DNA of 51,348 bases, from the NCBI GenBank assembly GCA_903882285.1, contig CAIRWM010000076.1, positions 1 to 51,348 of the forward strand. Direction: 5' to 3'. A program made the position numbers and the translations under genes. Below the pieces are notes generated by a model, which worked only from the letters and a program-made list of their open reading frames with translations, was not told the DNA's origin and searched no databases. Source of the stretch: an uncultured cyanobacterium (GTDB lineage: Bacteria; Cyanobacteriota; Cyanobacteriia; PCC-6307; Cyanobiaceae). Shown here one piece after another: positions 9,841 to 30,494 of the stretch (position 1 is the first letter of the stretch; every line of letters starts with the position of its first letter).

Positions 9841-10860
9841 ATGGCCGCATCATCCCGGACTTGCTCCTTGTCTGCCCTCACCCGCTGCCTGATCGAGGAG
9901 GCGGCCGCGATCGCGGCCAGCGCCCAGCGACTGGACACGGCTCAGGTGGAAGGGGCCCTGGAGCTGCTGGAGACCTGCGCCGACCGGCGGGCCAAGCTGG
10001 TGATCACCGGCGTGGGCAAGAGCGGCATCGTCGCCCGCAAGATCGCCGCCACCTTCTCCTCGATTGGCCTGATGGCCATCTACCTCAATCCCCTCGACGC
10101 CCTGCACGGCGACCTGGGCGTGGTGGCCCCCGACGACGTCACCCTGCTGCTCTCCAACAGCGGCGAGACCCAGGAATTGCTGGAGATCCTGCCCCACCTG
10201 AAGCGCCGCGGCACGGCCCGCATCGCCCTGGTGGGCCGGGTGGAGTCGCGCCTGGCGCGCGGCTGCGACGTGGTGCTCGACGGCTCGGTGGACCGGGAGG
10301 TATGCCCGCTCAACCTCGCCCCCACCGCCAGCACCGCCGTAGCGATGGCGATCGGGGATGCCCTGGCGGCGGTCTGGATGGAGCGCCGCGGCATCTCCCC
10401 CCAGGACTTCGCCATCAACCATCCAGCCGGCGCCCTCGGCAAACAGCTGACCCTCACCGCTGCCGACCTGATGGTGCCCGTGGCCCGGCTGGCGCCGATC
10501 CACCCCAGCACCTCCCTGCCGGAGGTGATCGCCCACCTCACCGCCGACGGGGTGGGGGCCTGCTGGGTGGCCCATCAGGAGAGGCAGGAACGCATCTGGG
10601 GCCTGATCACCGACGGCGATCTGCGCCGCGCTCTGCAGCATCACGGGCCGGAGCAATGGAGCCGCCTGACCGCCGCCGATCTGATGACCGCCGACCCGAT
10701 CACCGTGGGCGGCGAGACCCTGGCGGTCAGCGCGATCGAACGGATGGAGCGAAACCGCCGCAAGGCGATCGGCGTGCTGCCGGTGATCGACGCGGCCGAG
10801 CGCATGCTGGGCCTGCTGCGCCTGCACGACCTGGTGCAGGCCGGCCTGACGAAGGGCTGA
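9841..10860 (+). CDS. kpsF: D-arabinose-5-phosphate isomerase (KpsF/KdsD)
   Basis: A 339-residue protein. The N-terminal SIS sugar-isomerase domain carries VGKSGIVARKIAATFSS and SNSGETQE. NHPAGALGKQL links to two C-terminal CBS domains (about 210-265 and 280-335). It converts ribulose-5-P to arabinose-5-P, the first step to Kdo. The ATG at 9841 is where family similarity starts, although the reading frame stays open far upstream through the opposite-strand cca gene. It is the only plus-strand Kdo gene here; kdsB lies 860 bp further on, convergent. Confidence 0.94.
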   Translation: MAASSRTCSLSALTRCLIEEAAAIAASAQRLDTAQVEGALELLETCADRRAKLVITGVGKSGIVARKIAATFSSIGLMAIYLNPLDALHGDLGVVAPDDVTLLLSNSGETQELLEILPHLKRRGTARIALVGRVESRLARGCDVVLDGSVDREVCPLNLAPTASTAVAMAIGDALAAVWMERRGISPQDFAINHPAGALGKQLTLTAADLMVPVARLAPIHPSTSLPEVIAHLTADGVGACWVAHQERQERIWGLITDGDLRRALQHHGPEQWSRLTAADLMTADPITVGGETLAVSAIERMERNRRKAIGVLPVIDAAERMLGLLRLHDLVQAGLTKG

Positions 10861-11720: not shown

Positions 11721-12506
11721 TCAGTCCCCGGTCGAGGCGGCGATCGCCCGGGCCTGCTCCAGCTGCTCGGCGGTGTCCACCGACAGGGACTCCCCCTCCA
11801 CCGCAAAGGTGCCGATGCCGATGCCCGCCTCCAGCAGCCGCAGCTGCTCCAGCTTCTCGATCCCCTCCAGGGGCGAAGCCGGCAGGCTGTTCCAGCGGGC
11901 CAGCACCTCGGCGCGGTAGCCATAGATGCCCACATGGCCCCAGAAGGGCACATGGGCGTGCCAGTCGGACGGATCGACGCCGCGCACATGGGGAATGGCG
12001 GAGCGGGAGAAGTAGAGCGCCCGACCGTCGGCGGAGACGAGCGTCTTGACGACGTTGGGGTTGTGCACCTTGTCGGCCCCCATGCGGTAAACCGGCGTCA
12101 GCACCTCGGCGGCGGGTCCGCGCCGCTCGAATTCGTCGGCCATCGCGTCAATCACACCGGCATCGATGAACGGCTGGTCGCCCTGCACGTTGAGGATCAC
12201 CGTGCGCTCGACCGGCACGCCGGCCAGGTCGACCATCTGCTCCACCACCGAAGCGATGCGCTCACTGCCGGAGCAGCAGGCGGGGCTGGTGGCGATCGCC
12301 GGAAAGCCCCAGGACTCAGCGGCGGCGATCAGCTCCTCGCTGTCGGTGCAGAGCACCACCGCCTGCGGGGCGCGGGCCTGGCCGCAGCGATCCAGCACCC
12401 GGCGCAGCATCGGCTTGCCGCCGATGTCAGCCATCACCTTGCCCGGCAGCCGCGACGACTCCAACCGGGCCGGCACCGCCACCACGTAGCGCATCCCGTC
12501 GCCCAT
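11721..12506 (-). CDS. kdsB: 3-deoxy-manno-octulosonate cytidylyltransferase (CMP-Kdo synthetase)
   Basis: A 261-residue protein. Its N-terminal nucleotide-binding signature is VAVPARLESSRLPGK, followed by NVQGDQPFID and the conserved late segment LEGIEKLEQLRLLEAG. It activates Kdo with CTP to CMP-Kdo, the donor for Kdo transfer. Length and motifs match E. coli KdsB. ATG at 12506; a TAGGCT hexamer 26 bases upstream overlaps the stop codon of the HIT gene and may be its -10 element. Confidence 0.95.
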   Translation of the reverse strand: MGDGMRYVVAVPARLESSRLPGKVMADIGGKPMLRRVLDRCGQARAPQAVVLCTDSEELIAAAESWGFPAIATSPACCSGSERIASVVEQMVDLAGVPVERTVILNVQGDQPFIDAGVIDAMADEFERRGPAAEVLTPVYRMGADKVHNPNVVKTLVSADGRALYFSRSAIPHVRGVDPSDWHAHVPFWGHVGIYGYRAEVLARWNSLPASPLEGIEKLEQLRLLEAGIGIGTFAVEGESLSVDTAEQLEQARAIAASTGD

Positions 12507-12532: not shown

Positions 12533-12538
12533 AGCCTA
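12533..12538 (-). promoter_or_regulatory. Candidate -10 element (TAGGCT) of kdsB
   Basis: On the minus strand TAGGCT ends 26 bases upstream of the kdsB ATG. Its first three bases are the stop codon of the upstream HIT gene. It is the same hexamer as in front of icd, pcrA and rnpB. Confidence 0.45.
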
Positions 12539-13030
12539 AAGCCGTCCCTCAGCCGCAAGCTGCCGGGCGTGGCCCACCAGCGCGGCCACGCGGGCCGGCT
12601 CGGCGGGCGGCCGGTCGCCGGCCACCATCGCCCGGTAAAGGTCAGCGACGCGCCAGCTCTCGCTGGCCGGATCGGCCCCATGGCGCGGGATCAGGTGCAG
12701 ATGGAAATGGCGGGCACCCTCGCCGAAGGTGATCGCATAGACGCGGTCGCAGCCGGTGAGCTCCCGCACCAGCTCCGACGTGCGACGCAGCAGGGGTCCG
12801 AGAGCGGCACACTCGCTGTCATTGAAATCGGCCGGACCACCCACGTGCCGGTCGGTGTCGAGCACCAGCCAGCCCGGTAGCGGCGCCGGCAGCGGATGGT
12901 GGCGCAACAGGAAGGGACCGAAGCGGCCGATCAGCAGCCCCGCGGGTCCGTCGGGAGAGCCCGGCTCCGCAGCCACGGCGGCGAGCTCGGCATGGAGTCG
13001 GCAGACGCCGCAGCTGGAGAGATCGGTCAT
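12536..13030 (-). CDS. HIT family nucleotide-binding protein
   Basis: A 164-residue protein. The histidine triad is visible as HFHLHLIPR (about 122-130). A CGVC pair near the N-terminus resembles the zinc-binding Cys of some HIT proteins, with the remainder (LVLDTDRHVGG) typical of the fold. HIT proteins hydrolyse or transfer nucleotides from AMP-type conjugates; the substrate here is unknown. I chose the ATG at 13030 (MTDLSSCGVC); an upstream in-frame start would add 22 unconserved residues and overlap the divergent glycosyltransferase gene. Confidence 0.85.
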   Translation of the reverse strand: MTDLSSCGVCRLHAELAAVAAEPGSPDGPAGLLIGRFGPFLLRHHPLPAPLPGWLVLDTDRHVGGPADFNDSECAALGPLLRRTSELVRELTGCDRVYAITFGEGARHFHLHLIPRHGADPASESWRVADLYRAMVAGDRPPAEPARVAALVGHARQLAAEGRL

Positions 13031-13033
13031 ACG

Positions 13034-14026
13034 TTGAACAAGCTGCGACACTCGGGCCAGAGCAACGCCGCACCCATCGCCACTCTCCCCCAGCACGGCA
13101 CCCAGGCGGCCCCCCAGCCCGGGCCGCTAGCCGCCAGCGAGCAGCTGGTCGTCGTGACGGTGTCTTACCACAGCGGGGCCGTGCTGGCGGCCCTGGCAGC
13201 TGATCTGTCGGCCCAGAGCGAGCCGGCCGAGGCCTGGCTGGTGGTGGACAACAGCCCCGTGTCAGCCCGGCTCGATCCGGTGCCGCTGGCGGCGGCCGCC
13301 AGCGGTGGGGCACCCCTACCCGTGCGCCGCCTCGAGGGCCGCGAGGGCGACGGCTTCGGGGCGGGCTGCAACCGGGCACTGGAGGCGCTGGAGCAGGAGA
13401 GCTGGCAGGGCTGGGTGTGGCTGCTCAACCCCGATGCGGCCCTGCCCCGCGGCGATGAGCTGGCCCAGCTGCGCCAGCGGCTGCGCCAGCTGCCCCAGCG
13501 GGCCCTGGTGGGCACCGCCGTGGCCGACGGCCGCGGCGACTACGAGGCCAGCGGCGGCTGGTTTGATCGCGGCTTCAACTTCCGTGGCCGCCGCCTCGAG
13601 CCGGCGAGCGCCATCGCGGCAGACCCGGAGCAGCCCGTGGCGGTCGACTGGCTGAGCGGCTGCAGCCTGGCGCTGCGCCCCGCCGCCCACCGGTCGGCGC
13701 CCCGCTTCGACGCGGGCTTCCCCCTCTACTACGAGGACATGGACCTCTGCCTGCGCCTGGGCCGCCAGGGGGCGCCGGTGCTGTGGCTGAGCGCACCGGC
13801 GATCGTGCACCGCAAGGGCACCGGCAGCGCCGCCCCCGGGCCGCGGCGGCTGCAGCTCTCGAGCCTCAGCTACCTGCGCTTCCTGCGGCGTCACTGCCCG
13901 GGCTGGGTGGTGGCGGTGCGGGTCCTGAGGCTGCTGCTGCTCACCCTGCTGCGGCTGCCGCTGCACCCCCAGCGCAGCCTGGCGGTGCTAGGGGCGATGC
14001 TGACGGTGCTGCGGGAACCCGCCTGA
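13034..14026 (+). CDS. Family 2 glycosyltransferase (rhamnosyltransferase-like)
   Basis: A GT-A fold enzyme of up to 330 residues. Strand 1 is VVVTVSYHSG, then WLVVDNSP, GFGAGCNRAL and WVWLLNPDAAL (the DxD-equivalent region), with YYEDMDLCLRLGRQG as the catalytic-base segment. Helices near the C-terminus (about 285-325) are hydrophobic. The start is uncertain. TTG at 13034 leaves 3 bp to the divergent HIT gene; GTG at 13154 would begin right at strand 1. It is followed after 4 bp by a GT4 enzyme, so the two are probably cotranscribed. Confidence 0.85.
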   Translation: MNKLRHSGQSNAAPIATLPQHGTQAAPQPGPLAASEQLVVVTVSYHSGAVLAALAADLSAQSEPAEAWLVVDNSPVSARLDPVPLAAAASGGAPLPVRRLEGREGDGFGAGCNRALEALEQESWQGWVWLLNPDAALPRGDELAQLRQRLRQLPQRALVGTAVADGRGDYEASGGWFDRGFNFRGRRLEPASAIAADPEQPVAVDWLSGCSLALRPAAHRSAPRFDAGFPLYYEDMDLCLRLGRQGAPVLWLSAPAIVHRKGTGSAAPGPRRLQLSSLSYLRFLRRHCPGWVVAVRVLRLLLLTLLRLPLHPQRSLAVLGAMLTVLREPA

Positions 14027-14030
14027 ACCG

Positions 14031-15110
14031 ATGTCCCACGCCCCGCTCGCCCTGTTCAACGGCAGCTACCTGAGCCGCCGGCCCACCGGCATCGGCGTGG
14101 TGGCCCGCGACCTGGTGGCCGCCCTCGATCCCGACCTGGTGCCCCTGCTGGATCCCCTGGGCGACGTCCGTCCCGGCAGCCGAGCGATTCCGGCCGGCCT
14201 GTCGCCGGAGCACGGTCGCCGCGGCCACCTCGCCCGGCTGCGCTGGACCCAGAACGAACTGCCGCGGCTGCTGCGGGCCAGCGGCGCCCCCCTGCTGCTC
14301 TCGCCCCTGCCAGAGGCACCGCTGCTGCGGGGGGTGCGCTCCGTGGTGCTCGCCCACGACCTGCTGCCCCTGCGCTATCCACAGCTCAGACCACTGCTGG
14401 CCTACCACCTGGCCTACGTGCCCCTGGTGCTGCACCGGGCGGTACGGGTGCTGTGCAACTCCGAGGCCACCGCCCGCGAGGTGCATGGCCGGCTTGGGGT
14501 GCCGGCGCGGCGCCTGGTACCGATCCGCCTGGGTTTCGACCCGGGGCGGCTGCGACCCCTGGGGCTGGAGCGGGAGCCGTTTGTCCTGGTGCTCGGCCGC
14601 CACGATCCCCACAAGAACCTGGCCCGGGTGCTGCGGGCCTTCGCCGCCGTACCGGATCCGGGCCGGGAGCTGCGGCTGAAGCTGGTCGGCCCCCACGACC
14701 ACCGCTACACCCCCGCCCTGCAGCGGTTGGCGGTGGAGCTGGGCATCGCCGCCCGCTGCGACTGGCTGCCCTGGGTGAGCGACCTGGAGCGGCTCGACCT
14801 GCTCAACCGCTGCCGGGCCCTGCTGCTGATCAGCCTCTGGGAGGGGTTCGGCCTGCCGGCGCTGGAGGCCATGGCCTGCGGCGCACCGGTGATCGCGGCC
14901 CGGGCCGGCGCCCTGCCCGAGGTGGTGGGGGACGCGGGCCTGCTGGTGGATCCCCGCGCGCCGCTGGAGATCGCCGATGCGATCAGCCAGCTCGGCCGCG
15001 ACCCCGGCCTGGCCCGCACCCTGGCCGCCGCGGGGCCGGCGAGAGCGGCCAGCTTCCGCTGGGACGCTACCGCCGCGCACGTCAGCGCGGTGCTGCGGGA
15101 GTTCGCCTGA
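14031..15110 (+). CDS. Family 4 glycosyltransferase
   Basis: A 359-residue GT-B enzyme. The N-terminal acceptor domain begins LALFNGSYLSRRPTGIGVVARDLV. The donor domain has VLVLGRHDPHKNL, LKLVGPHD and the E-x7-E signature WEGFGLPALEAMACGAPVIA, and ends at GDAGLLVDP. This is the profile of mannosyl- and related transferases using nucleotide sugars. ATG at 14031, 4 bp after the GT2 gene. Its stop lies 6 bp from the convergent end of the next gene. Confidence 0.93.
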   Translation: MSHAPLALFNGSYLSRRPTGIGVVARDLVAALDPDLVPLLDPLGDVRPGSRAIPAGLSPEHGRRGHLARLRWTQNELPRLLRASGAPLLLSPLPEAPLLRGVRSVVLAHDLLPLRYPQLRPLLAYHLAYVPLVLHRAVRVLCNSEATAREVHGRLGVPARRLVPIRLGFDPGRLRPLGLEREPFVLVLGRHDPHKNLARVLRAFAAVPDPGRELRLKLVGPHDHRYTPALQRLAVELGIAARCDWLPWVSDLERLDLLNRCRALLLISLWEGFGLPALEAMACGAPVIAARAGALPEVVGDAGLLVDPRAPLEIADAISQLGRDPGLARTLAAAGPARAASFRWDATAAHVSAVLREFA

Positions 15111-15116
15111 ACCACC

Positions 15117-16025
15117 TCAGATCAGCTGCACCGCCGGATCGAGGGCCGCCCGAGCCGCCACCAGGCGGCGCAGGTTGGCGTCGCTGTCGCGGGGAAGCAC
15201 CACCAGCAACGGCGAGCCCTGCGGCCGCAGGCGCAGGGCCGCCAGCAGGGTCATGCTCTCCCCCACCACCACCAGGGCAGTAAAGGTGGCGATCAGCGGT
15301 TCGGGCGGTCTCGCCAGCTCCCGGTCCCCAGGCCCTGGCGGCAGCGGCCAGCACCGCTTGGCCCGCACCGGATGGGGCACCAGCAGCCGCGGTCCTGGCG
15401 GCAGCAGGCCACAGCGCTCAGACCCCGCCTCCGCCAGGCGTTCCAAGCCGGGGGCATCAATGACCAGGGCGCTCCACGGGCCCTCGGCCGGCGGCGGCGG
15501 CAGCCCGGGGCCAGGGGCGAAGTCCTCCGGCGTGTAGAGCGGCCCCAGGTCGCCCAGGGAAAACCGGCGGCACCAGGCGGCGCGGCCATCGACGGCGTCG
15601 GAGAACAGCCAACAGGGGGTGCCGGCGGCAAAGGCCAGGGGCTCCACCGCCCGGGGCTGCGCACGGTACTGGTCGAGGCCGTCATCGATCAGACAGAGCC
15701 TCCGGGCCCGGCGGGCGAGCAGCCGCAGGGCCCGGCCCACCCGGCGCAGGTGGGGCAGCCGCAGCTCCTCCACCAGGCCCAGCAGTGCCAGGGGCAGCAG
15801 GGCGAGCATCACCGACCGCCGCACCGCCAGCCGCAGCGGCCAGAGCCGCCGGTCCTCAGAGCTGAGCTGCAGGCGCCGGGGCTCATGGATCAACAGGTCG
15901 CGCCAGGCCGCCCGCCGGGGAGCCTGCCGATGTTGGGCCGCGTCCGCCTCCCGCCGCCGCAGCCGCCGGGCCGCCTCCAGGTGGATGGCATTGGAGACGA
16001 TTGTGACGCGGAACACGGCAAGCAC
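15117..16025 (-). CDS. Unassigned glycan enzyme with sialyltransferase-like DDG and HP motifs
   Basis: A protein of about 302 residues, with GTG at 16025 or a second GTG three codons in. It begins with a Rossmann-like strand VTIVSNAIHLEAA. I see three motifs in the order known for bacterial sialyl- and polysialyltransferases: D-D-G at 114-116 (CLIDDGLDQYR), H-P at 218-219 (LLVPHPVRAKR) and a Ser/Thr site VVGESMT at 254-258. I do not recognise a close family. Last gene of a minus-strand run of transferases (18789 to 15117). Its donor could be CMP-Kdo made by neighbouring genes; that is inference. It is rich in Arg and Leu, like the rest of the region. Confidence 0.55.
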   Translation of the reverse strand: MLAVFRVTIVSNAIHLEAARRLRRREADAAQHRQAPRRAAWRDLLIHEPRRLQLSSEDRRLWPLRLAVRRSVMLALLPLALLGLVEELRLPHLRRVGRALRLLARRARRLCLIDDGLDQYRAQPRAVEPLAFAAGTPCWLFSDAVDGRAAWCRRFSLGDLGPLYTPEDFAPGPGLPPPPAEGPWSALVIDAPGLERLAEAGSERCGLLPPGPRLLVPHPVRAKRCWPLPPGPGDRELARPPEPLIATFTALVVVGESMTLLAALRLRPQGSPLLVVLPRDSDANLRRLVAARAALDPAVQLI

Positions 16026-16067: not shown

Positions 16068-17048
16068 TCAGGAATCAGCGGGGCGCCGCAGGCCCTCAAG
16101 CCGGCCCCGCCCCAGCGACAGCAGCCAGACCGGCAGCTGCAGAACCCGCCGACCGCTGTGCCACCAGAGCCGGTGCCACCAGCGCACGTCCCAGCGGCCC
16201 TGACGGGAGTGGGGAACGAGCTTGATGGGCAGCTCCTCGAGGAACACCTCAGGGATCGCCAGAAAGCAGCTCCAGAAGGCCATACGACGGGCATGGTCGA
16301 TCTCGTCGGCGGTCTCGGCGGCGGGCCGGGGCAGGCTGCCGGGCTCGAGCCGCCAGCGATCGGGGGCCTCCTGCCGGTACCGGCTGACGGAGCTGAGCGC
16401 GCCCCAGGGGCAGTGGGCCGCCAGCAGACGGTTGCCCAGGCGGGAGGAGCGCATCGTCGCCAGGCCGAGGTTGCGGCGCAGGGCCTGCCCCGCCCCGGCC
16501 CGGACCTGGCCCATGCGCTCCTCGTCGGAGTGCTCGATCACGCCGATCGCCGCCGCTGGCAGCAGTCCCAGGGGCACCCCCGCCTGGATCTCCAGGCGAG
16601 CGCGCAGGTCCTTGTCCTCGAAGCCCCAGCCACGCATGACCTCGTTGAAGCCGCCGATGGCCGCGAAGCGCTCCCGGGCCATCAGGAACTGGCCGTAGCG
16701 CCCCTCACCGCCCGTACCCACCCAGACCGCTGCCCCCGCCAGCAGAGTCGGCGGATCGAAGGCGGCAGTGGGCCAGCAGTCGGCGTCCATGCGGATCAGC
16801 CAGTCGCCGGTCGCCTGGGCCAGGGCGAAGTTGTACGCCCGCGACGGGTTCCAGCGCCGCTCCCCCTCCACCCGCAGCAGCCGCAGGCGGGGATCGGCGG
16901 GCAGATCGTCGCGCCGCAGGGGTTCGGCACTGCTCCAGTCGACGACCAGGTGCTCGTCATGCCAGGGCCAGGCGGCCACCGCTGCGGCGGAAGGCAGCAG
17001 GTGCTCGCGGCGGTTCATGCAGACCGTGACCACACTCAGGCCCCTCAT
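16068..17048 (-). CDS. Family 2 glycosyltransferase with galactosyltransferase-type C-terminal segment (copy 2)
   Basis: A 326-residue protein. The GT-A start is LSVVTVCMNRREHLL. A metal-binding MDADCWPT site follows, then the acceptor/catalytic segment GGFNEVMRGWGFEDKDLRARL, typical of the Glyco_transf_7C/chondroitin-polymerase-like group. The C-terminus carries RWWHRLWWHSGRR. The ATG at 17048 overlaps the stop of the upstream paralog by 3 bases (ATGA), indicating translational coupling. It is a clear tandem paralog of 17045-18085. Confidence 0.9.
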   Translation of the reverse strand: MRGLSVVTVCMNRREHLLPSAAAVAAWPWHDEHLVVDWSSAEPLRRDDLPADPRLRLLRVEGERRWNPSRAYNFALAQATGDWLIRMDADCWPTAAFDPPTLLAGAAVWVGTGGEGRYGQFLMARERFAAIGGFNEVMRGWGFEDKDLRARLEIQAGVPLGLLPAAAIGVIEHSDEERMGQVRAGAGQALRRNLGLATMRSSRLGNRLLAAHCPWGALSSVSRYRQEAPDRWRLEPGSLPRPAAETADEIDHARRMAFWSCFLAIPEVFLEELPIKLVPHSRQGRWDVRWWHRLWWHSGRRVLQLPVWLLSLGRGRLEGLRRPADS

Positions 17049-18085
17049 CGACCGGTCTCCGACAGGGCCTCGCGGCCCGCCACCAGCAACCCCACCGGCA
17101 GGGCCAGCAGGCGCCGGCCGCTGTGCCACCAGAGCCGGTGCCACCAGCGCACCGGCCAGCGGCCCGCCCGGGCGGGGGGGAACAGGCTGAAGGGCAGCAC
17201 CTCCAGGAACACCTCGGGGATGGCCAGGAAAAAGCCCCAGAAGGTCATGCGGCGGGCGTGGGCCGCCTCCTCCGCTACCTCCCGGGGCGGCTGGGGCAGG
17301 GAAGCGGGCTCGAGCCGCCAGAGCGCCTCCCCCTCCTGCCGATAGCTGGAGCGGGGCGACGCCGGCCCCCAGGGGCAGTGGGCCGCCAGGAGGCGGTTGG
17401 CCAGCCGCGTCGCCCGCATCGCCGCCAGCCCCTGGCTGACCGCCAGGCCCCCGCGGCCCGCCCCGTGCTCGGCCCGCTCCTCATCAGAGTGGGGAATCAC
17501 GGCGATCCAGTCGGGCGGCCGCGCCGCCGCCCCATGGCCACAGCGCTGGCGCAGCCGGGCCAGCAGATCCTTGTCATCGAAGCCGTAGCCCACCAGCAGC
17601 TCGTTGAAGCCCCCCACGGCCTCAAACAGGGCGCGATCGATCAGGAACTGACCCTTGCGGCCGTCAGGTCCCGAACCGAAGGCGCACAGAGGGCCGACAG
17701 CCGGGGGCCCGGCGATGGCTCCGCCACCGGCCGCGCCACCGGGAAGCCGCAGCGCCGGATCCTCCGGGTCGAAGGCCGCGGTGGGCCAGGCGTCGGCATC
17801 CAGCTTGAGCAGGCGGGCGCCGCGGCTGCAGGCCACGGCGAAGTTGTAGGCGCGGCAGAGGTTCCAGCGCTCCTCCCCCTCCACCCGCAGCAGCCGCAGG
17901 CGGGGGTCGGCGGGCAGGTCCTCGCGGCGCAGCGGCACAGCACTGCTCCAGTCGAGCACCAAGTGCTCGTCATGCCAGGGCCCGGCGGCCACCGCCGCAG
18001 CCGAGCGCAGCAGGTGCTGGCGGCGGTTCATGCAGACGGTGACGACGCTGAGGCCAGCGCGGTCGGCAGCCCCGTTCAGTCCCAC
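17045..18085 (-). CDS. Family 2 glycosyltransferase with galactosyltransferase-type C-terminal segment (copy 1)
   Basis: A 346-residue protein sharing with the next gene LSVVTVCMNRR, HDEHLVLDWSSA, KLDADAWPTAAFDP, GGFNELLVGYGFDDKDL and WWHRLWWHSGRR. It has an insert of about 20 residues after the DxD region (GGAAGGGAIAGPPAVG). The GTG at 18085 is the best start; it overlaps the end of the GT8-like gene by 10 bp. Similarity between the copies is strongest at both ends. It presumably adds a hexose to a surface glycan. Confidence 0.9.
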   Translation of the reverse strand: MGLNGAADRAGLSVVTVCMNRRQHLLRSAAAVAAGPWHDEHLVLDWSSAVPLRREDLPADPRLRLLRVEGEERWNLCRAYNFAVACSRGARLLKLDADAWPTAAFDPEDPALRLPGGAAGGGAIAGPPAVGPLCAFGSGPDGRKGQFLIDRALFEAVGGFNELLVGYGFDDKDLLARLRQRCGHGAAARPPDWIAVIPHSDEERAEHGAGRGGLAVSQGLAAMRATRLANRLLAAHCPWGPASPRSSYRQEGEALWRLEPASLPQPPREVAEEAAHARRMTFWGFFLAIPEVFLEVLPFSLFPPARAGRWPVRWWHRLWWHSGRRLLALPVGLLVAGREALSETGR

Positions 18086-18789
18086 AGCCGCACGGCTTCG
18101 TCGCGGGCGCTGAACCACTCGGCCGCCAGCGGCCCACCCATCGTGCGCTGCTCGCGGAACCAGGGCCCCCCGAGGGTCCAGTGCAGCAGGCTCGGTCCGC
18201 CGTCCGCCGCCGCCGCGCCGGGCGCGCTCTGGACATCGACCAGATGGTTCCAGCGGTCGGCCAGGGCGCCGATCTCGTGGTCGCCGGCGAGCCAGTGGAA
18301 GCGATGCAGCTCCAGGCCGCTGGCGCTGTTCACGTAATCGGGCGTTAGCGCCGTGCAGCGGGCGCAGTTGAGCAACATCAACGAGCTCCAGTTCTTCTTC
18401 GGATAGGCGCTCTGCACCTCGCCGAGGAATTTCACCGTCTCGCCGGGCACATGCTCGTGCTGCACGCACATCACGGCAAAGTCGTCATGGCGCTGGTTCC
18501 AGAGCTCGGCGATGTCGCCGCGGCAGAGCATGTCGCAGTCCATGAAGATCGCCCAGCCCTCGTAGCCCATCAGCCAGGGCACCAGGAAGCGGGTGAAGGA
18601 GAAGGCGGTGCTCTGTTTCGGATCCCGCTCGCGCGAAAAGACCCCCGCCAGCTGCTCGGTAACGATCGGCGTGATGGCCAGGGGCTGGCTGGTGTGCTGA
18701 TAGAGGCTGTCGATCAGCACGTTGGTGGCCGCCCGTTCGCGCGGGTCGTAGCCGATGAAGATCGGGATCGGCCGGACGGGATTCGGCAT
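18076..18789 (-). CDS. GT8-like glycosyltransferase (intact paralog)
   Basis: A 237-residue protein. Motifs are IPIFIGYDPRERAATNVLI, FTRFLVPWL, the DxD site AIFMDCDMLCRGDI, KKNWSSLMLLNC and FHWLAGDHEIGAL. The end is GGPWFREQRTMGGPLAAEW. This matches small cyanobacterial family 8-like transferases with a Mn-binding D-C-D. First gene of an overlapping minus-strand run (18789 to 15117), divergent from pcrA with an 84-bp spacer. The frameshifted gene at 10864-11570 is its paralog and shows what the intact form looks like. Confidence 0.88.
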   Translation of the reverse strand: MPNPVRPIPIFIGYDPRERAATNVLIDSLYQHTSQPLAITPIVTEQLAGVFSRERDPKQSTAFSFTRFLVPWLMGYEGWAIFMDCDMLCRGDIAELWNQRHDDFAVMCVQHEHVPGETVKFLGEVQSAYPKKNWSSLMLLNCARCTALTPDYVNSASGLELHRFHWLAGDHEIGALADRWNHLVDVQSAPGAAAADGGPSLLHWTLGGPWFREQRTMGGPLAAEWFSARDEAVRLWD

Positions 18790-18873: not shown

Positions 18874-21336
18874 ATGGCTGCTGCCCCCTCCCCCGCGACC
18901 GGCCCCGGCGCGCCCAGCTCGGCGTTCCTGGCCGGCCTCAACGACGCCCAGCGCCGGGCGGTGGATCACCACACCGGACCGCTGCTGGTGGTGGCCGGGG
19001 CCGGCAGCGGCAAGACCCGGGCCCTGACGCACCGCATCGCCCACCTGATCGGCCACCACGGCGTCGATCCGGCCGATCTGCTGGCCGTCACCTTCACCAA
19101 CAAGGCGGCGCGGGAGATGAAGGAGCGGCTGGAGCTGCTGCTGGCCCAGAAGCTGGCCCAGAGCCAGTTCGGCCAGCCCTGGAGCACCCTGGCGCCGATC
19201 GAGCAGAAGCAGCTGCGCAGCCGCATCTACCGCGAGGTGATCAAGGAACTCTGGATCGGCACCTTCCACGCCCTGTTCGCGCGGCTGCTGCGCTTCGACA
19301 TCGACAAATTCAAGGACCCTGACGGGCTCAGCTGGACGCGCCAGTTCTCGATCTACGACGAGAACGACGCCCAGAGCCTGGTCAAGGAGATCGTCACCCA
19401 GGACCTGCAGCTCGACCCGAAGCGCTTCGAGCCCAAGAAGGTGCGCTGGGCGATCAGCAACGCCAAGAACCAGGGCTGGCTGCCCGAACAGATGGAGGCC
19501 AACGCCGAGGGGCTGCGGGACCGCAAGATGGCCGAGGCCTATCGCCTCTACCGCCGCGCCCTGGCGGCCAACAACGCCCTCGACTTCGACGATCTGCTGC
19601 TGTTGCCGGTGCAGCTGCTGCGCCAGAACGAGCAGGTGCGCGGCTACTGGCACCGCCGCTTCCGCCACGTGCTGGTGGATGAATATCAGGACACCAACCG
19701 CACCCAGTACGACCTGATCAAGCTGCTGGTCACCGATGGCCAGGATCCGGAGACGTTCGACGCCTGGGACGGGCGCTCGGTGTTTGTGGTGGGCGACGCC
19801 GACCAGAGCATCTACAGCTTCCGGGCGGCAGACTTCACGATCCTGATGGGCTTCCAGGACGACTTCGGCGACGGCGCCCCCGACCCGTCCACCCGCACGA
19901 TGGTGAAGCTGGAGGAGAACTACCGCTCCACCGCCACGATCCTGGAGGCGGCCAACGCCCTGATCGCCAACAACGCGGAACGGATCGACAAGGTGCTGCG
20001 TCCCACCCGGGGCGAGGGGGAACCAATCAGCCTCACCCGCTGCGACGACGAGATCGCCGAAGCCGAGGCGGTGGTGCACCGCATGCGCATGCTCGACGCC
20101 GCCCACCCGGAGCTGCGCTGGGGCGACATGGCGGTGCTATACCGCACCAACGCCCAGTCACGGGCGATGGAGGAGTCGCTGGTGCGCTGGGGCATCCCGT
20201 ACCTAGTGGTGGGCGGCCTGCGCTTCTACGACCGGCGCGAGATCAAGGACATGCTCGCCTACCTGAAGCTGCTGGTTAACCCGGCTGATACGGTCAGCCT
20301 GTTGCGGGTGCTGAACGTGCCGCGGCGCGGCATCGGCAAGACCACGATCGAGCGGCTCACCGACGCCGCCGCCCAACTGGGCATCCCCCTCTGGGATGTG
20401 GTCAGCGACGCCGAGGCGGTGCGCTCCCTGGGGGGCCGCTCGGCCCGGGGGCTGCTGCAGTTCTGCGAGCTCATCAACGACCTGCAGCGCCGTCTCCAGG
20501 ACGCGCCGCCTTCGGAGCTGGTGCAGCGGGTGATGGAGCAGAGCGGCTACGTGGCCGAACTGCTCGCCGACGGCACGGACGAGGCGGAGGACCGGCGCCG
20601 CAACCTCAACGAGCTGGTCAACGCGGCCCTGCAATACCAGGAGGAGAACGACGAGGGCAACCTGGAAGACTTCCTCGCTTCGGCGGCCCTGGCCAGCGAC
20701 GCCGACAGCAAGGACACCGACCAGGACCGGGTGACACTGATGACCCTGCACGCCAGCAAGGGGCTGGAGTTTCCGGTGGTGTTCCTGGTGGGACTGGAGC
20801 AGGGGCTGTTCCCCAGTTACCGCTCCCTCGACGATCCCGCCTCCCTCGAGGAGGAGCGCCGCCTCTGCTATGTGGGCCTGACGCGCGCCAAGGAGCGCCT
20901 GTTCCTCAGCCATGCCAGCGAGCGGCGCCTCTGGGGCGGCATGCGGGAGCCGGCCGTGCCCTCTGTGTTTCTCTCGGAGCTGCCCGCCGAACTACTGCAG
21001 GGGGACATCCCCCACAGCGGCGGCGCGGCGATCCGCCGCGAGCAGCGGCTCGAGCGCCTCACCCGCGTCGACCGCGAGGAGAGCCGGCGCGTGGCCGCCG
21101 GCGGCGAAGGGGGCCAGCCGGCCAATGCCGTGCGCCGCCGCCCGGGGGCGAGCGCCGGCCGCAGCTGGGCCGTGGGCGACCGCCTGCGCCATGCCGCCTT
21201 CGGCGAAGGCCACATCACCCACCTGTTCGGCAGCGGCGAAAAGGTCTCGATCGCCGTCAAGTTCGAGGGCATGGGGCCAAAGATCCTCGATCCGCGCCTG
21301 GCACCGATCGAACCGCTGGGCGCCGACACGCCGTGA
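18874..21336 (+). CDS. pcrA: UvrD/PcrA-type ATP-dependent DNA helicase
   Basis: An 820-residue superfamily 1A helicase. Motif Q/I region is LNDAQRRAVDHHTGP and VVAGAGSGKTRAL (Walker A). Then come LLAVTFTNKAAREM, VLVDEYQDTNRTQYDLI (motif II), VVGDADQSIYSFRAA (motif III), TLMTLHASKGLEF (motif V) and RRLCYVGLTRAKERL (motif VI). The C-terminal tail carries the small PcrA beta domain (WAVGDRLRHAAFGEGHI). It unwinds DNA in repair and replication restart. It is embedded in the glycan region and shares a GTGA overlap with the next gene. Confidence 0.96.
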   Translation: MAAAPSPATGPGAPSSAFLAGLNDAQRRAVDHHTGPLLVVAGAGSGKTRALTHRIAHLIGHHGVDPADLLAVTFTNKAAREMKERLELLLAQKLAQSQFGQPWSTLAPIEQKQLRSRIYREVIKELWIGTFHALFARLLRFDIDKFKDPDGLSWTRQFSIYDENDAQSLVKEIVTQDLQLDPKRFEPKKVRWAISNAKNQGWLPEQMEANAEGLRDRKMAEAYRLYRRALAANNALDFDDLLLLPVQLLRQNEQVRGYWHRRFRHVLVDEYQDTNRTQYDLIKLLVTDGQDPETFDAWDGRSVFVVGDADQSIYSFRAADFTILMGFQDDFGDGAPDPSTRTMVKLEENYRSTATILEAANALIANNAERIDKVLRPTRGEGEPISLTRCDDEIAEAEAVVHRMRMLDAAHPELRWGDMAVLYRTNAQSRAMEESLVRWGIPYLVVGGLRFYDRREIKDMLAYLKLLVNPADTVSLLRVLNVPRRGIGKTTIERLTDAAAQLGIPLWDVVSDAEAVRSLGGRSARGLLQFCELINDLQRRLQDAPPSELVQRVMEQSGYVAELLADGTDEAEDRRRNLNELVNAALQYQEENDEGNLEDFLASAALASDADSKDTDQDRVTLMTLHASKGLEFPVVFLVGLEQGLFPSYRSLDDPASLEEERRLCYVGLTRAKERLFLSHASERRLWGGMREPAVPSVFLSELPAELLQGDIPHSGGAAIRREQRLERLTRVDREESRRVAAGGEGGQPANAVRRRPGASAGRSWAVGDRLRHAAFGEGHITHLFGSGEKVSIAVKFEGMGPKILDPRLAPIEPLGADTP

Positions 21337-22427
21337 GCGCGGCAGCCACTGATTCTCGCCAGCTGGTACTGACCGGCGGCCTGATCCATCTGGTGCATCA
21401 GCTGGCGGTGCTCACCGACCTGCCCGAAAACAGCGAGCGCCGGGGTGCATCCCCCCGGATCGCCGTGCTGATCACCGGGGTGCTCACCCGGGATGCGGTG
21501 GCCCTGGGCGGCCTGCACCAGGCGATGGAGGCCTGGTTCGCCCTGCTGCGCCAGCGAGATCCCGGCCAGTTCGGGGGGCTCCAGCTGATCCGCCGCGAGG
21601 CCGACCTGCCAGCGGGCCCGTGGGACCTGGCCCTGCTCAACAACCAGTGGGTGAGCGGCCAGCGCTCGGTGGTGGAGCGGCTCGGCATCGGGGAGTTGGT
21701 GGTCTGCGGCGACGGCCTCGGCCTCTACTACCGCTGCGCCCGCGAACTGCGGGCCCTGCTGCCCAGCCTGTTGAACCGGCCGATCCCGGAGCCTGGGCGC
21801 CGCGTGCGCTATGTGCTCAGCGGCCGGCAGCCCGCCTGGCATCGCCCCCCTCAGGCCGCTGCCACGGCGCCCTCAGCGGAGCGGGCCCGCCTGTTCGCCC
21901 TGCTGGTGGAAAGTCAGCGCCCGCAGGCCGCCGCGGCGGTGGTCCTCGCCCTCGACGCCAGCGCCCCCGAGCGGCCGCTTTGGCTGTGCTCCGTGCCCAA
22001 CCTGGCCCATCAGTTCCCGGGGCGCCACATTCCCCAGGCGGTGCTGGAGGACTGGCGGCGGCGGCTGGAGCGTCGGCACGGCTTCGATCCAGGCCGTGAC
22101 CGTCTGCTGCTGATCGACCATCCCAAGGCCCCCCCGAACGGCAGCTTCGGGCCGCTGCAGCGCCCCTGGCTGGCCGGACCGCTGCGCTCGGCGGTGGCCC
22201 TGGAGGTGCTGGTGCAGCTGCTGCGGGAGCGCTGTGGCGAGCGGCGGATCGTGGTGGCCGGCCTCACCTCCGCCCTCTACGGGGTGCGGCAACTCACCGG
22301 CGCCGAGGTGGCCTGGTTGCACTTAGCACCGCTCTGGCACGGCAACCCCCTTTACCGGCGCCGCCCTCTGGAGTTCCTGCATCGCTGGCTACGGGTGGCG
22401 CGCATGGCCCGGCTCACCGGCCCCTAA
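21333..22427 (+). CDS. Unassigned glycan enzyme with sialyl/polysialyltransferase-like motifs
   Basis: A 364-residue protein beginning with GTG in a GTGA overlap with the pcrA stop. It opens with a strand-turn typical of GT-B enzymes (LVLTGGLIHLVHQLAVL). Three motifs stand out: G-D-G at 126-128 (VVCGDGLGLYYR), H-P at 263-264 (LLIDHPKAPPNG) and a Ser/Thr site at 310-315 (GLTSALYG). The order is that of bacterial sialyl- and polysialyltransferases, although the first acidic residue is replaced by Gly. No close family is recognised. The product may use a CMP-ulosonate such as CMP-Kdo; this is inferred. Confidence 0.55.
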   Translation: MSAAATDSRQLVLTGGLIHLVHQLAVLTDLPENSERRGASPRIAVLITGVLTRDAVALGGLHQAMEAWFALLRQRDPGQFGGLQLIRREADLPAGPWDLALLNNQWVSGQRSVVERLGIGELVVCGDGLGLYYRCARELRALLPSLLNRPIPEPGRRVRYVLSGRQPAWHRPPQAAATAPSAERARLFALLVESQRPQAAAAVVLALDASAPERPLWLCSVPNLAHQFPGRHIPQAVLEDWRRRLERRHGFDPGRDRLLLIDHPKAPPNGSFGPLQRPWLAGPLRSAVALEVLVQLLRERCGERRIVVAGLTSALYGVRQLTGAEVAWLHLAPLWHGNPLYRRRPLEFLHRWLRVARMARLTGP

Positions 22428-26052: not shown

Positions 26053-26631
26053 TCAGTCATTGCGGTCGCGCCATCCCTCGCCGGCCAGCCGCCGCCATTC
26101 TCCCCGGGCGCGCAGGATCTCCTCCGCCAGGCGCCGCACGGCGCCATCGCCGCCCTTGCGGTCGAGCACCCAGTCGGCCCGCCGCCGCAGCGGCTGCACC
26201 GCATCGGCGGTGGCGATCAGCAGACCCACGGCAGGGCGCACGGCCAGGTCATTGAGATCGTCACCGACGAAGGCGCACTGGGCGGCGCTCACCCCCAGGG
26301 ACTGCTGCAGCGCCGCCAGGGCCGCCGGCTTGTCCTTCACGGCGGTGAGCACGTGAGTGATGCCCAGGTAGCGGGCCCGCTGCTCGGTGGCGCCGCTCTT
26401 GCCACCACTCAACCAGGCCACCTCCAGACCGGCCTGTTGCAGCAGTCGAATCCCCAGACCGTCGCGCACATCGAAGCGCTTGATCACCTCGCCGCTCTCG
26501 CTGGTCCAGAGACCGCCGTCGGTGAGCACACCATCGACATCGAGCACCAGCAGCCGCAGCGCTCGTAGCTGAGGCCGCACGCGCCGCAGGCCGCTGGCGT
26601 GGCACCAGAAGCGGTGGAGCTGCTGGATCAC
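26053..26631 (-). CDS. kdsC: 3-deoxy-D-manno-octulosonate 8-phosphate phosphatase (KdsC type)
   Basis: A 192-residue HAD hydrolase without a cap domain. The nucleophile motif is VLDVDGVLTDGGLW, then FDVRDGLGI, LSGGKSGATEQRA and the metal motif FVGDDLNDLA, all matching KdsC. It removes the 8-phosphate from Kdo8P. It follows kdsA on the same strand with a 41-bp gap, so kdsA and kdsC act in sequence. It could in principle be a relative acting on another ulosonic acid phosphate, but the kdsA neighbour argues for Kdo. Confidence 0.92.
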   Translation of the reverse strand: MIQQLHRFWCHASGLRRVRPQLRALRLLVLDVDGVLTDGGLWTSESGEVIKRFDVRDGLGIRLLQQAGLEVAWLSGGKSGATEQRARYLGITHVLTAVKDKPAALAALQQSLGVSAAQCAFVGDDLNDLAVRPAVGLLIATADAVQPLRRRADWVLDRKGGDGAVRRLAEEILRARGEWRRLAGEGWRDRND

Positions 26632-26672: not shown

Positions 26673-27482
26673 TCAGAGGCTGCTGACGGCCAGCCCCTGC
26701 TGCAGGGGTTCCCGGATCGCCAGCAGCTGCTCCAGCAGCGGCTCCAGACGATGCAGCGGCACCATGTTGGGCCCATCGCTGAGGGCGCGATCGGGATCGG
26801 GGTGAACCTCCATGAACAGGCCGTCCACACCCACCGCCACGGCGGCGCGGGCCAGGGGAGCCACGAACTCGCGCTGACCGCCCGTGGCGGTGCCCAGGCC
26901 GCCGGGCTGCTGCACCGAATGAGTGGCATCAAAGATCACCGGACAGCCGAGGTCGCGAAGTTGCGGCAGGCTGCGGTAATCGACGATGAGGGTGTTGTAG
27001 CCGAAGCTGTTGCCCCGCTCGGTGAGCCAGATGGTCTCAGCACCGGCATCGCGCAGCTTCTTCACCACCTGGGCCATGTCCCAGGGGGCCAGAAACTGAC
27101 CTTTCTTGACGTTGATCACCTTGTCCGTGCCGGCCGCAGCGGCGGCGGCGGCCAGCAGCAGATCGCTCTGGCGGCAGAGGAAAGCAGGGATCTGCAGCAC
27201 GTCCACCACCTCGGCCACCGGGGCCGCCTGCTGGCTCTCGTGGATGTCGGTGAGCACCCGCAGGCCTGTGCGGCGCTTGACTTCGGCCAGCACCTCCAGT
27301 CCCTCGCTGACACCGGGGCCGCGGAACGAACCACCGGAACTGCGATTCGCCTTGTCGAAGCTGGCCTTGAAGATGTAGTCGATGCCGAGCCGGTCAGTGA
27401 TCTGCTTGACCCTTTCGGCGATCTCGAAGACCAGATCCGCGCTCTCGATCACGCAGGGGCCGGCCAGCAGGATCAAGGACAT
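26673..27482 (-). CDS. kdsA: 3-deoxy-8-phosphooctulonate synthase (Kdo8P synthase)
   Basis: A 269-residue protein. Motifs are [54 protein letters not shown] and [16 protein letters not shown]. It condenses PEP with arabinose-5-P to Kdo8P. Cys10 in GPCVIES occupies the place that is Asn in E. coli KdsA, the mark of metal-dependent (class II) enzymes. The ATG at 27482 was chosen; a GTG six codons upstream is possible. Confidence 0.96.
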
Positions 27483-27529
27483 GATTGCCGGGAACGCCAC
27501 AACATCAAAACCAGCATAGGAGAGCGGCT

Positions 27530-29362
27530 TCAGCTCACCAGGCGACGCTCTAGGGAGGCGAGATCGCGGAAACTATCAGAGCGCTGCTGCAATTCCTCGA
27601 ATGTGCCGAAAGCCTTGATGCGACCCCGCTCAAATTCATAAATGCGATCGCAGCGCATCACCGTGGACAGGCGATGGGCGATCACCACGGTGGTGCAGCG
27701 GCGGCCGATCACCTCCAGGGCCTGAATAATTTCATTTTCCGTGCGATTGTCGAGGGCACTGGTGGCTTCATCCAGCAACAGGAACTGGGCGCGGCGATAG
27801 AACGATCGGGCCAGGGCCAGCCGCTGCCGCTGACCGCCTGAGAGTTGCAGGCCGTTCTCCCCGATCGGGGTGTGCAGGCCATAGGGCAGTTCGCTGACGA
27901 ATTCATCGAGCTGGGCCGCCTCCAAGGCCCCCCAGACCTCGTCCTGATCGACCTCCTCCTCGTTGCGGCCGAAGGCCACGTTCTCCACAACACTGGCATC
28001 CAGCAAATTGATGAATTGGGGCACCTGGGAGCAGCAGGCCTGCCACGCCGGAACGTCCTGAGGGGAGACGGGAATGCCATCAAGGGTGAGCGCACCACGA
28101 CCAGAATCGAGCAGGGAGAGCAGGATCTGGGCCGTGGTGGTCTTACCGCTGCCGGTGGAGCCCACGAAGGCGACGCGCGACCCCACCGGAATCGAGAGGT
28201 CGATCCCGCGCAACACCCAGTCCTTGGAACCCGGATAGGCATACCAGACATCCTGCAGGCCGATCGTGCGGTTGGGAAAGACGCCCTGGGGGCTGGACAC
28301 GCCTGGATCCCCCAACACGGGCTTACCCGTGGGAAGCCGTAGGTACTCCAGGGTGCTGTCGATCACGGGCAGGCCGCCGCGCAGCTGGTTCATCGAGGCG
28401 AAGAAATCCTGCAGGGGTGGCGTCAGGCGCAGGGCGGCCACCGCCAGCGAAGCAAGGAAGGGCAGGATGGAACGGATGTCGGAGCGATCGCCGCTGAGCA
28501 GGGGCGGCACAGCTCCCACAGCGAAAATCAGAGTGATGCCCAGGGGTTCGATCAGGGCCCGGGGAATCGTGGGCAGGAGTTCAGTGGTCCAGGCATAACT
28601 CTTGGCTTTCTCGCCGGTGCGCACGAAGGCCTGACGGAAGTGATTTTCCGAGGCGGTGAGCTTGATGTCGCGGATCGAGCCAAGGGATTCCAGTAGGATG
28701 TGGGCCGTGCGCGACTCCAGCCGAAGCTTTTGATTGGTGGCGTGGCGCAGATAAGGGGTGATCAGCTGGGAAATGACGAGGTACGCTCCGACCAGGCAGC
28801 TGATCAGCACTACCGCCGACCAGCGTCCGATCACAAGAATGCCGAACGAGAGCAGCAGGATCGAGAAGATGCTGCCGACCATCTTCAAGAGTGGATTCAC
28901 CACTGCGTTTGATGTCTTTTTGATGTGGCTCAGCACCATGGTCGAGAGCTTGGCCGTGCTCTTCGACAGGTGGTATTCATACCCCTGCGCCAACACATTG
29001 GCGTGGATCTGATTGGAGAGATCGATCCACACCCGCGCCGTGAGGCGCTGCTGTAAGTACTGCAACCCGAACTTGCCGAAGGAGGCGATCCAGGAAAGCA
29101 ACGCGAACAGGGCGATCAGCCAGAGGCTCTGATCGATGGAATCTCCGCCGAACACCTTCACGCCCGGCAGTCGGTCTTCCATGTCACTCCCCACCAGGGC
29201 GCCCATCAGGCGGGCGATCACCGCCACCGAGGCCAGATCCACGAAGCCCGGGATCACCGAAAAAGCCACCACCCGTCTGAGCTGGCGCAGGCGCTCCGGC
29301 GGCAGGTAGGCCATCAGGGCCCGCAGCTGCCGGTAAGTTCGGCTCCGGGAGAGCAGATTCAA
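27530..29362 (-). CDS. ABC transporter, fused permease and ATPase (PglK/MsbA-like exporter)
   Basis: About 610 residues. The N-terminal half has around six membrane helices. The ATPase has Walker [12 protein letters not shown], signature [14 protein letters not shown], Walker [13 protein letters not shown] and the H-loop VIAHRLST. The fold is that of lipid-linked oligosaccharide or lipid exporters. Adjacent kdsA and glycosyltransferases suggest a flippase for a glycolipid or polysaccharide precursor. The start is uncertain: TTG at 29362 or ATG at 29314. An AGGAGG site lies upstream near 29450, at the end of the preceding gene, but too far for either start. Confidence 0.88.
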
Positions 29363-29450
29363 GCGCTGAGCGAGCTGTTCACATCGGGCTAACGCTATGG
29401 GGGCAGTCCCCGGAATCCGCCCCTGGCGGGCCAGCGCCGCAGCCGACCTC

Positions 29451-30494
29451 CTAGAAACGCCGCCAGTGTGATGCCAGGCGGGAGCGCAGCTGCCGGGCCC
29501 GCAGACGCCAGGGCGGCGCGCTCTGCAAGGGCTGACACCCGGCCCGCAGGAGTCGATCCCAGTGGTGATCAATCATCTCCAGGCCCCGATGCCAGCGGGC
29601 CTGCAGCGCTGACTCCGAACAGCTTTCCAGCAGGGCCACCAGCCTCGAGGGATCCGGCCGCCAGGCCCGCGGATCAGACGCGGCGGCGGCGATCCGCTCC
29701 AGATCGGCCTCAAGGGTGCCGCAGCCGATCTGATGGCCGAGCAGGCCGGGATCGAGGGCGTCGGCCAGGGCGTGATTGAGGCTGCTGAACACGACGCAGC
29801 CGCAGGCCATGGCCTCGATCGGCGGCAGGCCGAAACCCTCACTGACGCCCCGCCCCCGCCAGTAGTCGGCCGAGTCGTAGAGGTAGACGGAGGCGCTGTT
29901 GAACAGAGCAACCAGGTCGTCGACCCAGCCACTCTGCACCTCCACCGTCAGCCCCCGCTGGCGCAGGGCCGGCACCAGCTGCTCCAGCACATAGCGGCTG
30001 CTCTTGCGCTCCTGCACCAGCACGTCGATCGGCCGCCTGTGCCCCTGCGCCCCCTGCGGCTGGCAGTCGCCGCGCGCCAGCCACATCGGCTCGAGGGCGT
30101 TGGGAACAAGCAAGAGGGGATGGCGCGGCGCCCGGTCGCCCCAGTAGCCGAGGGTGTTGCGGCTGACCGCCAGCACCGGCACCCCGGCAGGCAGGGAGAA
30201 GCCATAGCCACTGCTGTGGGCGTGATATGCCACCGGACGCCCCTGCAGGCGCCGCAGCAGCCGGGGCACATCAAAGCCCCAGCTGACGATCCAGAGGGCC
30301 GGCCCCGGGGCCGGCTCGGCGGCGAGCAGGTCGTCGAGGAAGGCGTGGCCCTCCTCCCGCTGCCGGTAGGTGACCACCTCCACCGGGCGGTCAGAGGCAG
30401 CGGCAAGCAGACGCGCGGTCTGGAGCTCCACCAGGAGGCCGCCACAGCGGAATCGCCCCGTGGTGCCGGGGAGCAGGAAGCGAAGGGGGCGCAA
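29451..30494 (-). CDS. Glycosyltransferase, family 1/4 type (GT-B)
   Basis: A 347-residue protein with N-terminal LPGTTGRFRCGGLLVELQTA and the donor-domain motif VSEGFGLPPIEAMACGCVVFSS (E-x7-E), as in group 1 transferases. The middle has HAHSSGYGFSLPAGVPVLAVS. The apparent start is TTG at 30494, next to a GCGATCGC sequence; no ATG is near. It lies upstream of the ABC exporter gene on the same strand, which fits a shared glycan pathway. Confidence 0.85.
   Translation of the reverse strand: MRPLRFLLPGTTGRFRCGGLLVELQTARLLAAASDRPVEVVTYRQREEGHAFLDDLLAAEPAPGPALWIVSWGFDVPRLLRRLQGRPVAYHAHSSGYGFSLPAGVPVLAVSRNTLGYWGDRAPRHPLLLVPNALEPMWLARGDCQPQGAQGHRRPIDVLVQERKSSRYVLEQLVPALRQRGLTVEVQSGWVDDLVALFNSASVYLYDSADYWRGRGVSEGFGLPPIEAMACGCVVFSSLNHALADALDPGLLGHQIGCGTLEADLERIAAAASDPRAWRPDPSRLVALLESCSESALQARWHRGLEMIDHHWDRLLRAGCQPLQSAPPWRLRARQLRSRLASHWRRF

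Follow-up and report, generated by a model that had tools for sequence, protein, structure and literature searches.

The window, meaning the whole stretch of 51,348 nucleotides that was analysed, comes from a freshwater picocyanobacterium and contains a glycan cluster with kdsA, kdsB, kdsC and kdsD, each scoring above its curated NCBIfam cutoff. They encode a KdsD-type arabinose-5-phosphate isomerase of the KpsF/GutQ family with SIS and CBS domains (9886..10860, plus strand, start inexact; TIGR00393, 248.7 bits against a cutoff of 203.7), the CMP-Kdo synthetase KdsB (11721..12506, minus strand; TIGR00466, 189.6 bits, cutoff 155.2), a KdsC-type Kdo-8-phosphate phosphatase of the YrbI family (26053..26631, minus strand; TIGR01670, 149.2 bits, cutoff 106.95) and the Kdo-8-phosphate synthase KdsA (26673..27500, minus strand; TIGR01362, 400.3 bits, cutoff 314). 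Since all four exceed these cutoffs, the cluster should make CMP-Kdo. An earlier note on this DNA had placed Kdo genes and CMP-Kdo production near the protein studied here, and the complete set agrees with that.

The gene of interest occupies 15117..16025 on the minus strand and is an open reading frame of 302 codons with a GTG start and one stop. The earlier note had its span exactly, without the strand. It is convergent with a gene for a GT4-type glycosyltransferase (14031..15110, plus strand; Glycos_transf_1, E 1.9e-29). Just upstream of it lies a GT2/GT7-type glycosyltransferase gene (16068..17144, minus strand), followed by its GT7-type paralogue (17045..18079, minus strand, start inexact). 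A small HIT-like protein (12536..13096, minus strand), named from its HLHLIP motif and matched by no family model, adjoins kdsB, and its homologue stands beside kdsB in most loci whether the 302-aa protein is present or absent. A GT8-like protein of the GT-A type (18076..18789, minus strand) is encoded in nearly all kds loci examined, again with or without the 302-aa protein. Of about 20 KdsB-positive genomes examined, nearly all have its gene beside kds genes, among them the AT-rich genome G690 described below and most of those that lack the 302-aa protein. The protein carries FMDCDM, a DxD-type motif; motifs of this type are typical of UDP-sugar GT-A enzymes.

The remainder of the cluster begins with a pcrA/uvrD helicase gene (18874-21336, plus strand), which in nearly all of these genomes lies within the glycan cluster. 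Its end overlaps the start of a gene for a second polysialyltransferase-like protein of predicted GT-B fold (21333..22427, plus strand; 364 aa; GDG at 126-128, HPK at 263-265, TS at 312-313). Two paralogous membrane proteins (22449-23711 and 23723-24925, minus strand) had no Pfam or NCBIfam match and are possibly glycan polymerases, perhaps of a new kind. The next protein, P3 (24922..26034, minus strand; 370 aa, SSHHYGHDIQIKRYAG..LLEHGLKVS), is conserved in the cluster, being kept in most clusters with the 302-aa protein and in several kds loci without it. It gave no Pfam, NCBIfam or polysialyltransferase signal, and both P3 and the GT8 family were rejected as polysialyltransferase relatives for want of any such signal. 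An MsbA/PglK-like ABC exporter (27530..29572, minus strand) scored below equivalog cutoffs.

Motifs and predicted fold of the 302-aa protein

The motifs that had drawn attention to this protein lie where the earlier note put them: DDG at residues 114-116 in LCLIDDGLDQYRAQ, HP at 218-219 in LLVPHPVRAKRCW and ESMT at 256-259 in VVVGESMTLL. A profile search of 400 genomes of the taxonomic family found 30 homologues, one of them only 20% identical and in another genus, so the gene is real. In the alignment of 30 sequences, where identity falls to 20%, only 23 columns are invariant, and these include D115, G116, H218, P219, G255 and E256. N12, the stretch D115-G-L-D-x-Y-R and K223 are also the same in 30/30 homologues, and residue 242 is E or D in 29/30. 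DDG and HP are thus conserved among the homologues, with E replacing D114 in one of them. The ESMT motif was conserved in part: E256 is invariant and residue 257 is S or T in all 30, while T259 varies and residue 258 may be M, L, F or H.

The order of the motifs was less informative. The loose pattern [DE][DE]G...HP...S/T fitted 15 of 335 gene-like reading frames of 250-450 aa in the compared loci, and six of the 15 lay outside the family. Since six of about 320 unrelated reading frames fit, the motif order by itself is slight evidence; conservation is strong evidence.

Known families were not recovered from sequence. Single-sequence searches of Pfam, NCBIfam and the PDB gave no match, nor did profile searches of the PDB with alignments of 12 and 30 rows. 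In the Pfam-A and NCBIfam profile libraries, none of the sialyltransferase models matched the protein, and neither did PF05159 (Capsule_synth, KpsC/KpsS type) or PF04413 (WaaA). The plasmids and viral contigs searched held no relatives, and a structure search of BFVD returned only weak generic glycosyltransferase matches. One weak extra match from a phylum-wide profile search (in genome G326, E 6.9e-4) was rejected because the sequence is a YjeF-type carbohydrate kinase.

An AlphaFold2 model built from the 12-row alignment (pLDDT 89.1, pTM 0.84) has two Rossmann-like halves. Foldseek matched it to GT-B enzymes, with the Mannheimia haemolytica polysialyltransferase (MhPST/SiaD, 5wcn) in third place. 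When 999 chains were ranked with VIA-align, the top matches were the GT38 polysialyltransferase structures 5wcn and 5wc6 (Z 12.2), with 262-265 of 302 residues aligned, an rmsd of 5.1-5.3 and a structural identity of 11-13%. Plant UDP-glycosyltransferases came next (11.2 and below) and UDP-GlcNAc 2-epimerases reached about 11, so that UDP-sugar GT-B enzymes and epimerases trail 5wcn by no more than about 1 Z unit. The GT80 sialyltransferases 2c84 and 2zwi reached Z 10.4 with almost the full model aligned. Structures of WbbB, KpsC, KrkA and WaaA were absent among the 50 VIA-align matches listed, which by itself excludes none of them. The model and the Foldseek and VIA-align matches make a GT-B fold well supported, in line with the earlier note, and the top-ranked match is a bacterial polysialyltransferase; the preference for that structure is real but narrow.

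Comparison with known transferases

E153, part of an E-E-G motif, serves as the base in MhPST, where H291 of HP and S339/T340 handle the phosphate and E323 is the ribose-binding residue (PMC5517516). The 302-aa model has a comparable layout, with DDG at the end of N-domain strand 109-113, HP after C-domain strand 213-216 and GES (255-257) after strand 251-254. A maximum-accuracy profile alignment against 20 PF07388 proteins, made without motif hints, placed DDG on EDG and HP on HP; it also placed E242 on the equivalent of E323 and S257 next to that of S339, although the alignment is of low probability. The D/E-D/E-G motif with its second acid is kept in the 302-aa family and aligns to the EDG of PF07388. 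The acidic residue precedes the phosphate-binding serine by 16 positions in MhPST and the putative one by 15 in the 302-aa protein. The three C-half motif matches occurred together in 1/300 block shuffles of the C-terminal half. The real score was reached in 0/300 alignments with fully shuffled columns. Since the C-half adds little to the real score, which 17/300 block shuffles also attained, the argument lies in the co-alignment of three motifs and not in the score.

The comparison of structures and profiles proposed by the earlier note gave a divided result for GT38: Foldseek found 5wcn at 3.9e-4, but hhalign against GT38/PF07388 was not significant, with a best E of 0.005-0.04 and 0.018 for the best unrelated family. 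Because the profile score falls within the range of unrelated families, homology to GT38 at the sequence level is only suggested. Twelve members of the family had no match to PF07388 at E up to 10. Compared with MhPST, it is also shorter (302 against 382 residues), has no Pfam match and lacks equivalents of K289, K293 and T340. The basic residue of the (K/R)xHP motif is missing, position 216 (two before the histidine) always being V, I, L, M, A or C in the 30 sequences; KrkA of GT140 likewise lacks it (PMC12887879). Its donor, unlike that of GT38, is probably not sialic acid, since NeuB is absent from most genomes that carry the gene; its absence from the window genome speaks against a CMP-Neu5Ac donor and a polysialic acid product.

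Other families share parts of this picture. The GT80 enzymes (PmST1 and Photobacterium sialyltransferases; 2c84, 2zwi) are GT-B proteins with CMP-bound structures, but they show no sequence match to the 302-aa protein and have lower Z values than 5wcn, tied with UDP-sugar enzymes. GT30 (WaaA/KdtA) has the GT-B class and the proposed inverting Kdo transfer in common with it, but PF04413 does not match, and the context here is a variable surface-glycan locus rather than the lipid A core. The retaining families GT99 (WbbB), GT107 (KpsC) and GT140 (KrkA) resemble it in the GT-B fold, in the HP motif (30/30) and in the presumed CMP-Kdo donor. They differ in having QxxxD with its nucleophilic Asp, and their product is beta, whereas an alpha product is expected here; PF05159 does not match the 302-aa protein. 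All three retaining Kdo families that have been characterised keep QxxxD (PMC12887879). In the 302-aa family, the only conserved Q is Q119, with no D/E at +4 in most rows, and QxxxD occurs between residues 165 and 219 in only 2/30 rows, within a variable loop. D190 (28 D, 2 E) and E195 (27 E, 3 D) belong to a conserved [ILV]D[AS]PG[LV][ED] that follows the first strand of the C-terminal domain.

The 21333-22427 protein and its 10 homologues resemble the 302-aa protein in their GT-B fold, in 5wcn as top match, in D-G and HP motifs and in their presence in the same cluster. For its model (83.1/0.87), 5wcn reached Z 14.6, followed by GT80 sialyltransferases at 13.4 and below. It has no Pfam match. 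Its profile aligned to PF07388 proteins with E 3.2e-5 over 266 columns (best unrelated family, 0.019), and its GDG, HPK and TS aligned with the PF07388 motifs. By sequence, it is the better-supported polysialyltransferase relative of the two. Direct homology between the two proteins was rejected, as they have no detectable sequence similarity.

Relatives and the likely donor

In a sequence search of 201 family genomes, the 302-aa protein was present in 11, and homologues of the 21333-22427 protein were found in exactly the same 11. True KdsB (E <= 1e-70) was found in about 82 of the 201 (about 40%), so Kdo use must be independent of the gene studied here. The 10 other genomes found at first carry the gene as part of a syntenic block that also contains kdsD, kdsB, the HIT-like gene, GT2, GT4, GT7-type and GT8-like genes, uvrD/pcrA, a 21333-22427 homologue, membrane proteins, kdsC, kdsA and the ABC exporter. 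Counting the window, kds genes were near 23/24 mapped homologue loci, the exception being an 8.1-kb contig.

The homologue of 20% identity comes from another genus, whose genome G690 is AT-rich and 1.6 Mb in size. This homologue carries the motifs LEDGLDSYR, PHPGKAK and VGETM and adjoins kdsA-kdsC-kdsD-kdsB and a GT8-like gene. The 40 kb of this locus contain no 21333-22427 gene, GT7-type genes or membrane proteins like those of the window. Because the arrangement is different, the link to kds genes does not come from one inherited block only. This link is broader for the 302-aa protein than for the 21333-22427 protein, which is missing from the G690 locus.

Loci without the 302-aa protein keep the kds genes, the GT8-like gene and usually the HIT-like gene. 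In ten of them, no substitute DDG..HP protein was found by a strict pattern, and a loose pattern gave unrelated-looking fits only. Since kds genes persist in such genomes, the protein is one way among several of using Kdo, tied to a glycan type. No WaaA, KpsC/KpsS, PF07388 protein or similar kds-locus gene was found in a number of KdsB-positive genomes that lack it (G062, G150, G165, G108, G115 and others). Most Kdo-making relatives have neither the 302-aa protein nor the 21333-22427 protein, which points to further Kdo transferases.

NeuB was not found in the window genome, which is 90% complete, and KdsB was the only CTP_transf_3 protein detected there. NeuB and a second CTP_transf_3 protein were also absent from six further genomes with the gene (G035, G124, G142, G170, G182 and G194), and NeuB was present elsewhere in the genome in 3 of the 11 (G163, G051 and G084). 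Among 28 genomes searched, none had WaaA or PF07388, the window's included. KpsC/KpsS were found in only 2/28, one with the 302-aa protein (G051) and one without (G077), and in the window genome not at all. These Capsule_synth proteins lie at G051:C15 and G077:C23 (L057-L066), on contigs other than that of the kds cluster. The transferase check covered 24 KdsB-positive genomes, with no WaaA and with KpsC/KpsS in two only. Given the completeness of the window genome, these absences are strong but not absolute. As KdsB is the sole CTP_transf_3 protein and NeuB is absent, CMP-Kdo is the most likely donor if the protein uses a CMP-ulosonate. The link to Kdo, which the earlier note had offered as an inference, is therefore better grounded, by the kdsABCD set, the 23/24 loci and the lack in the window genome of another CMP-ulosonate pathway and of WaaA or KpsC/KpsS.

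Proposed role and alternatives

We propose, with a probability of roughly 0.55, that the 302-aa protein is the founding member of a new inverting, sialyltransferase-like family of Kdo transferases. The predicted GT-B fold, the conserved motifs and the linkage to kds genes support the earlier note's view of it as a candidate for a new class of Kdo transferase. The protein would be a cytoplasmic enzyme that moves Kdo from CMP-Kdo, supplied by KdsD-KdsA-KdsC-KdsB of the same cluster, to a growing surface glycan. Among the HP-motif ulosonate transferases, a structural group that comprises GT38, GT52, GT80 and relatives, its family would stand alone. The residue roles, donor, stereochemistry and acceptor are those that we infer. 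If MhPST (PMC5517516) is taken as the model, CMP may bind to the C-terminal Rossmann domain. H218 of HP and S257 of GES would hold or neutralise the leaving phosphate, and E242 would hold the ribose. D115 of DDG, in the N-terminal domain, could act as the general base, taking the proton from the acceptor hydroxyl so that the latter attacks directly in an SN2-like manner. The expected outcome is inversion, giving an alpha-Kdo linkage from CMP-beta-Kdo.

The 21333-22427 protein is a candidate for a second Kdo transferase and is likely to attach a further residue of this kind in the majority of loci with the 302-aa protein, though not in every one. The pair could be explained by two Kdo residues or by Kdo on two acceptors. 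A fuller version of the proposal, in which a new inverting alpha-Kdo family, derived from polysialyltransferases or convergent with them, acts with this second new polysialyltransferase-like transferase on a picocyanobacterial surface glycan, is tentative and falls a little short of even odds.

Another explanation is that the 302-aa protein is a GT-B enzyme whose donor is an ordinary nucleotide sugar (UDP-, GDP- or dTDP-sugar) and whose task is to build the acceptor or repeat, with Kdo being added by another protein of the cluster, for example the 21333-22427 protein or the GT8-like protein. UDP-sugar GT-B enzymes do follow closely behind 5wcn in VIA-align, the GT8-like gene occurs in nearly every kds locus, and the 21333-22427 protein is closer both to PF07388 and to 5wcn. 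On the other hand, HP and a DDG base characterise CMP-ulosonate enzymes and do not vary within the family, the G690 homologue accompanies kds genes where the 21333-22427 gene was not found in 40 kb, and FMDCDM of the GT8-like protein is DxD-type. We consider this explanation unlikely. It is also doubtful, and more so, that the protein is a retaining Kdo transferase that makes beta-Kdo like GT99, GT107 and GT140, with D190 or E195 as covalent nucleophile. These residues lie near the QxxxD site of the retaining enzymes, and a GT140 enzyme is likewise close to 5wcn in DALI (PMC12887879). Such a mechanism sits poorly with the lack of a conserved Q in a family-wide QxxxD, which all three characterised retaining families keep, with the failure of PF05159 to match, and with the invariant N-terminal D/E-D/E-G base of inverting sialyltransferases.

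There is little room for a protein that is no longer a transferase, whether a GT-B pseudoenzyme, an epimerase-like protein or a subunit that partners another transferase, even though UDP-GlcNAc 2-epimerases share the fold and two phosphate/cytosine-binding positions of GT38 are lost. In all 30 sequences, the most distant of which is only 20% identical, the presumed base, HP and the residues presumed to bind phosphate are conserved, which favours catalysis. Use of a different CMP-ulosonic acid, such as sialic, legionaminic or pseudaminic acid, is the least probable of the alternatives. It would fit the polysialyltransferase as closest solved structure and the NeuB genes elsewhere in three genomes, but not the seven genomes, the window's included, without NeuB or a second CTP_transf_3 protein, nor the kds genes that adjoin the homologue loci.

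To our knowledge, cyanobacteria are usually said to be without Kdo. The lipopolysaccharide of marine Synechococcus was reported to lack it (PMC4515613), and cyanobacteria were described as possessing, of the Kdo2-lipid A enzymes, only the first four, LpxA, LpxC, LpxD and LpxB (PMC3087551). In contrast to this picture, KdsB is present in about 40% of the sampled family genomes, and of the 24 KdsB-positive genomes checked for known Kdo transferases, none had WaaA and only two had KpsC/KpsS. By 2022, the recognised Kdo transferases comprised one inverting family (GT30) and two retaining families (PMC9587256); the third retaining family, GT140, followed in 2026 (PMC12887879). For several capsules, the alpha-Kdo transferase had no assigned protein (PMC7387560). 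For the missing Kdo-transfer step, the 302-aa protein offers a specific candidate of small size. If the proposal is true, it would place a new inverting alpha-Kdo family in picocyanobacteria, a group whose lipopolysaccharide was described as Kdo-free.

Elsewhere in the same taxonomic family, a PF07388 protein (L088, G034:C1:199161-199415) lies about 3 kb from a weak cytidylyltransferase-like match at G034:C1:202377, which suggests another CMP-ulosonate glycan locus.
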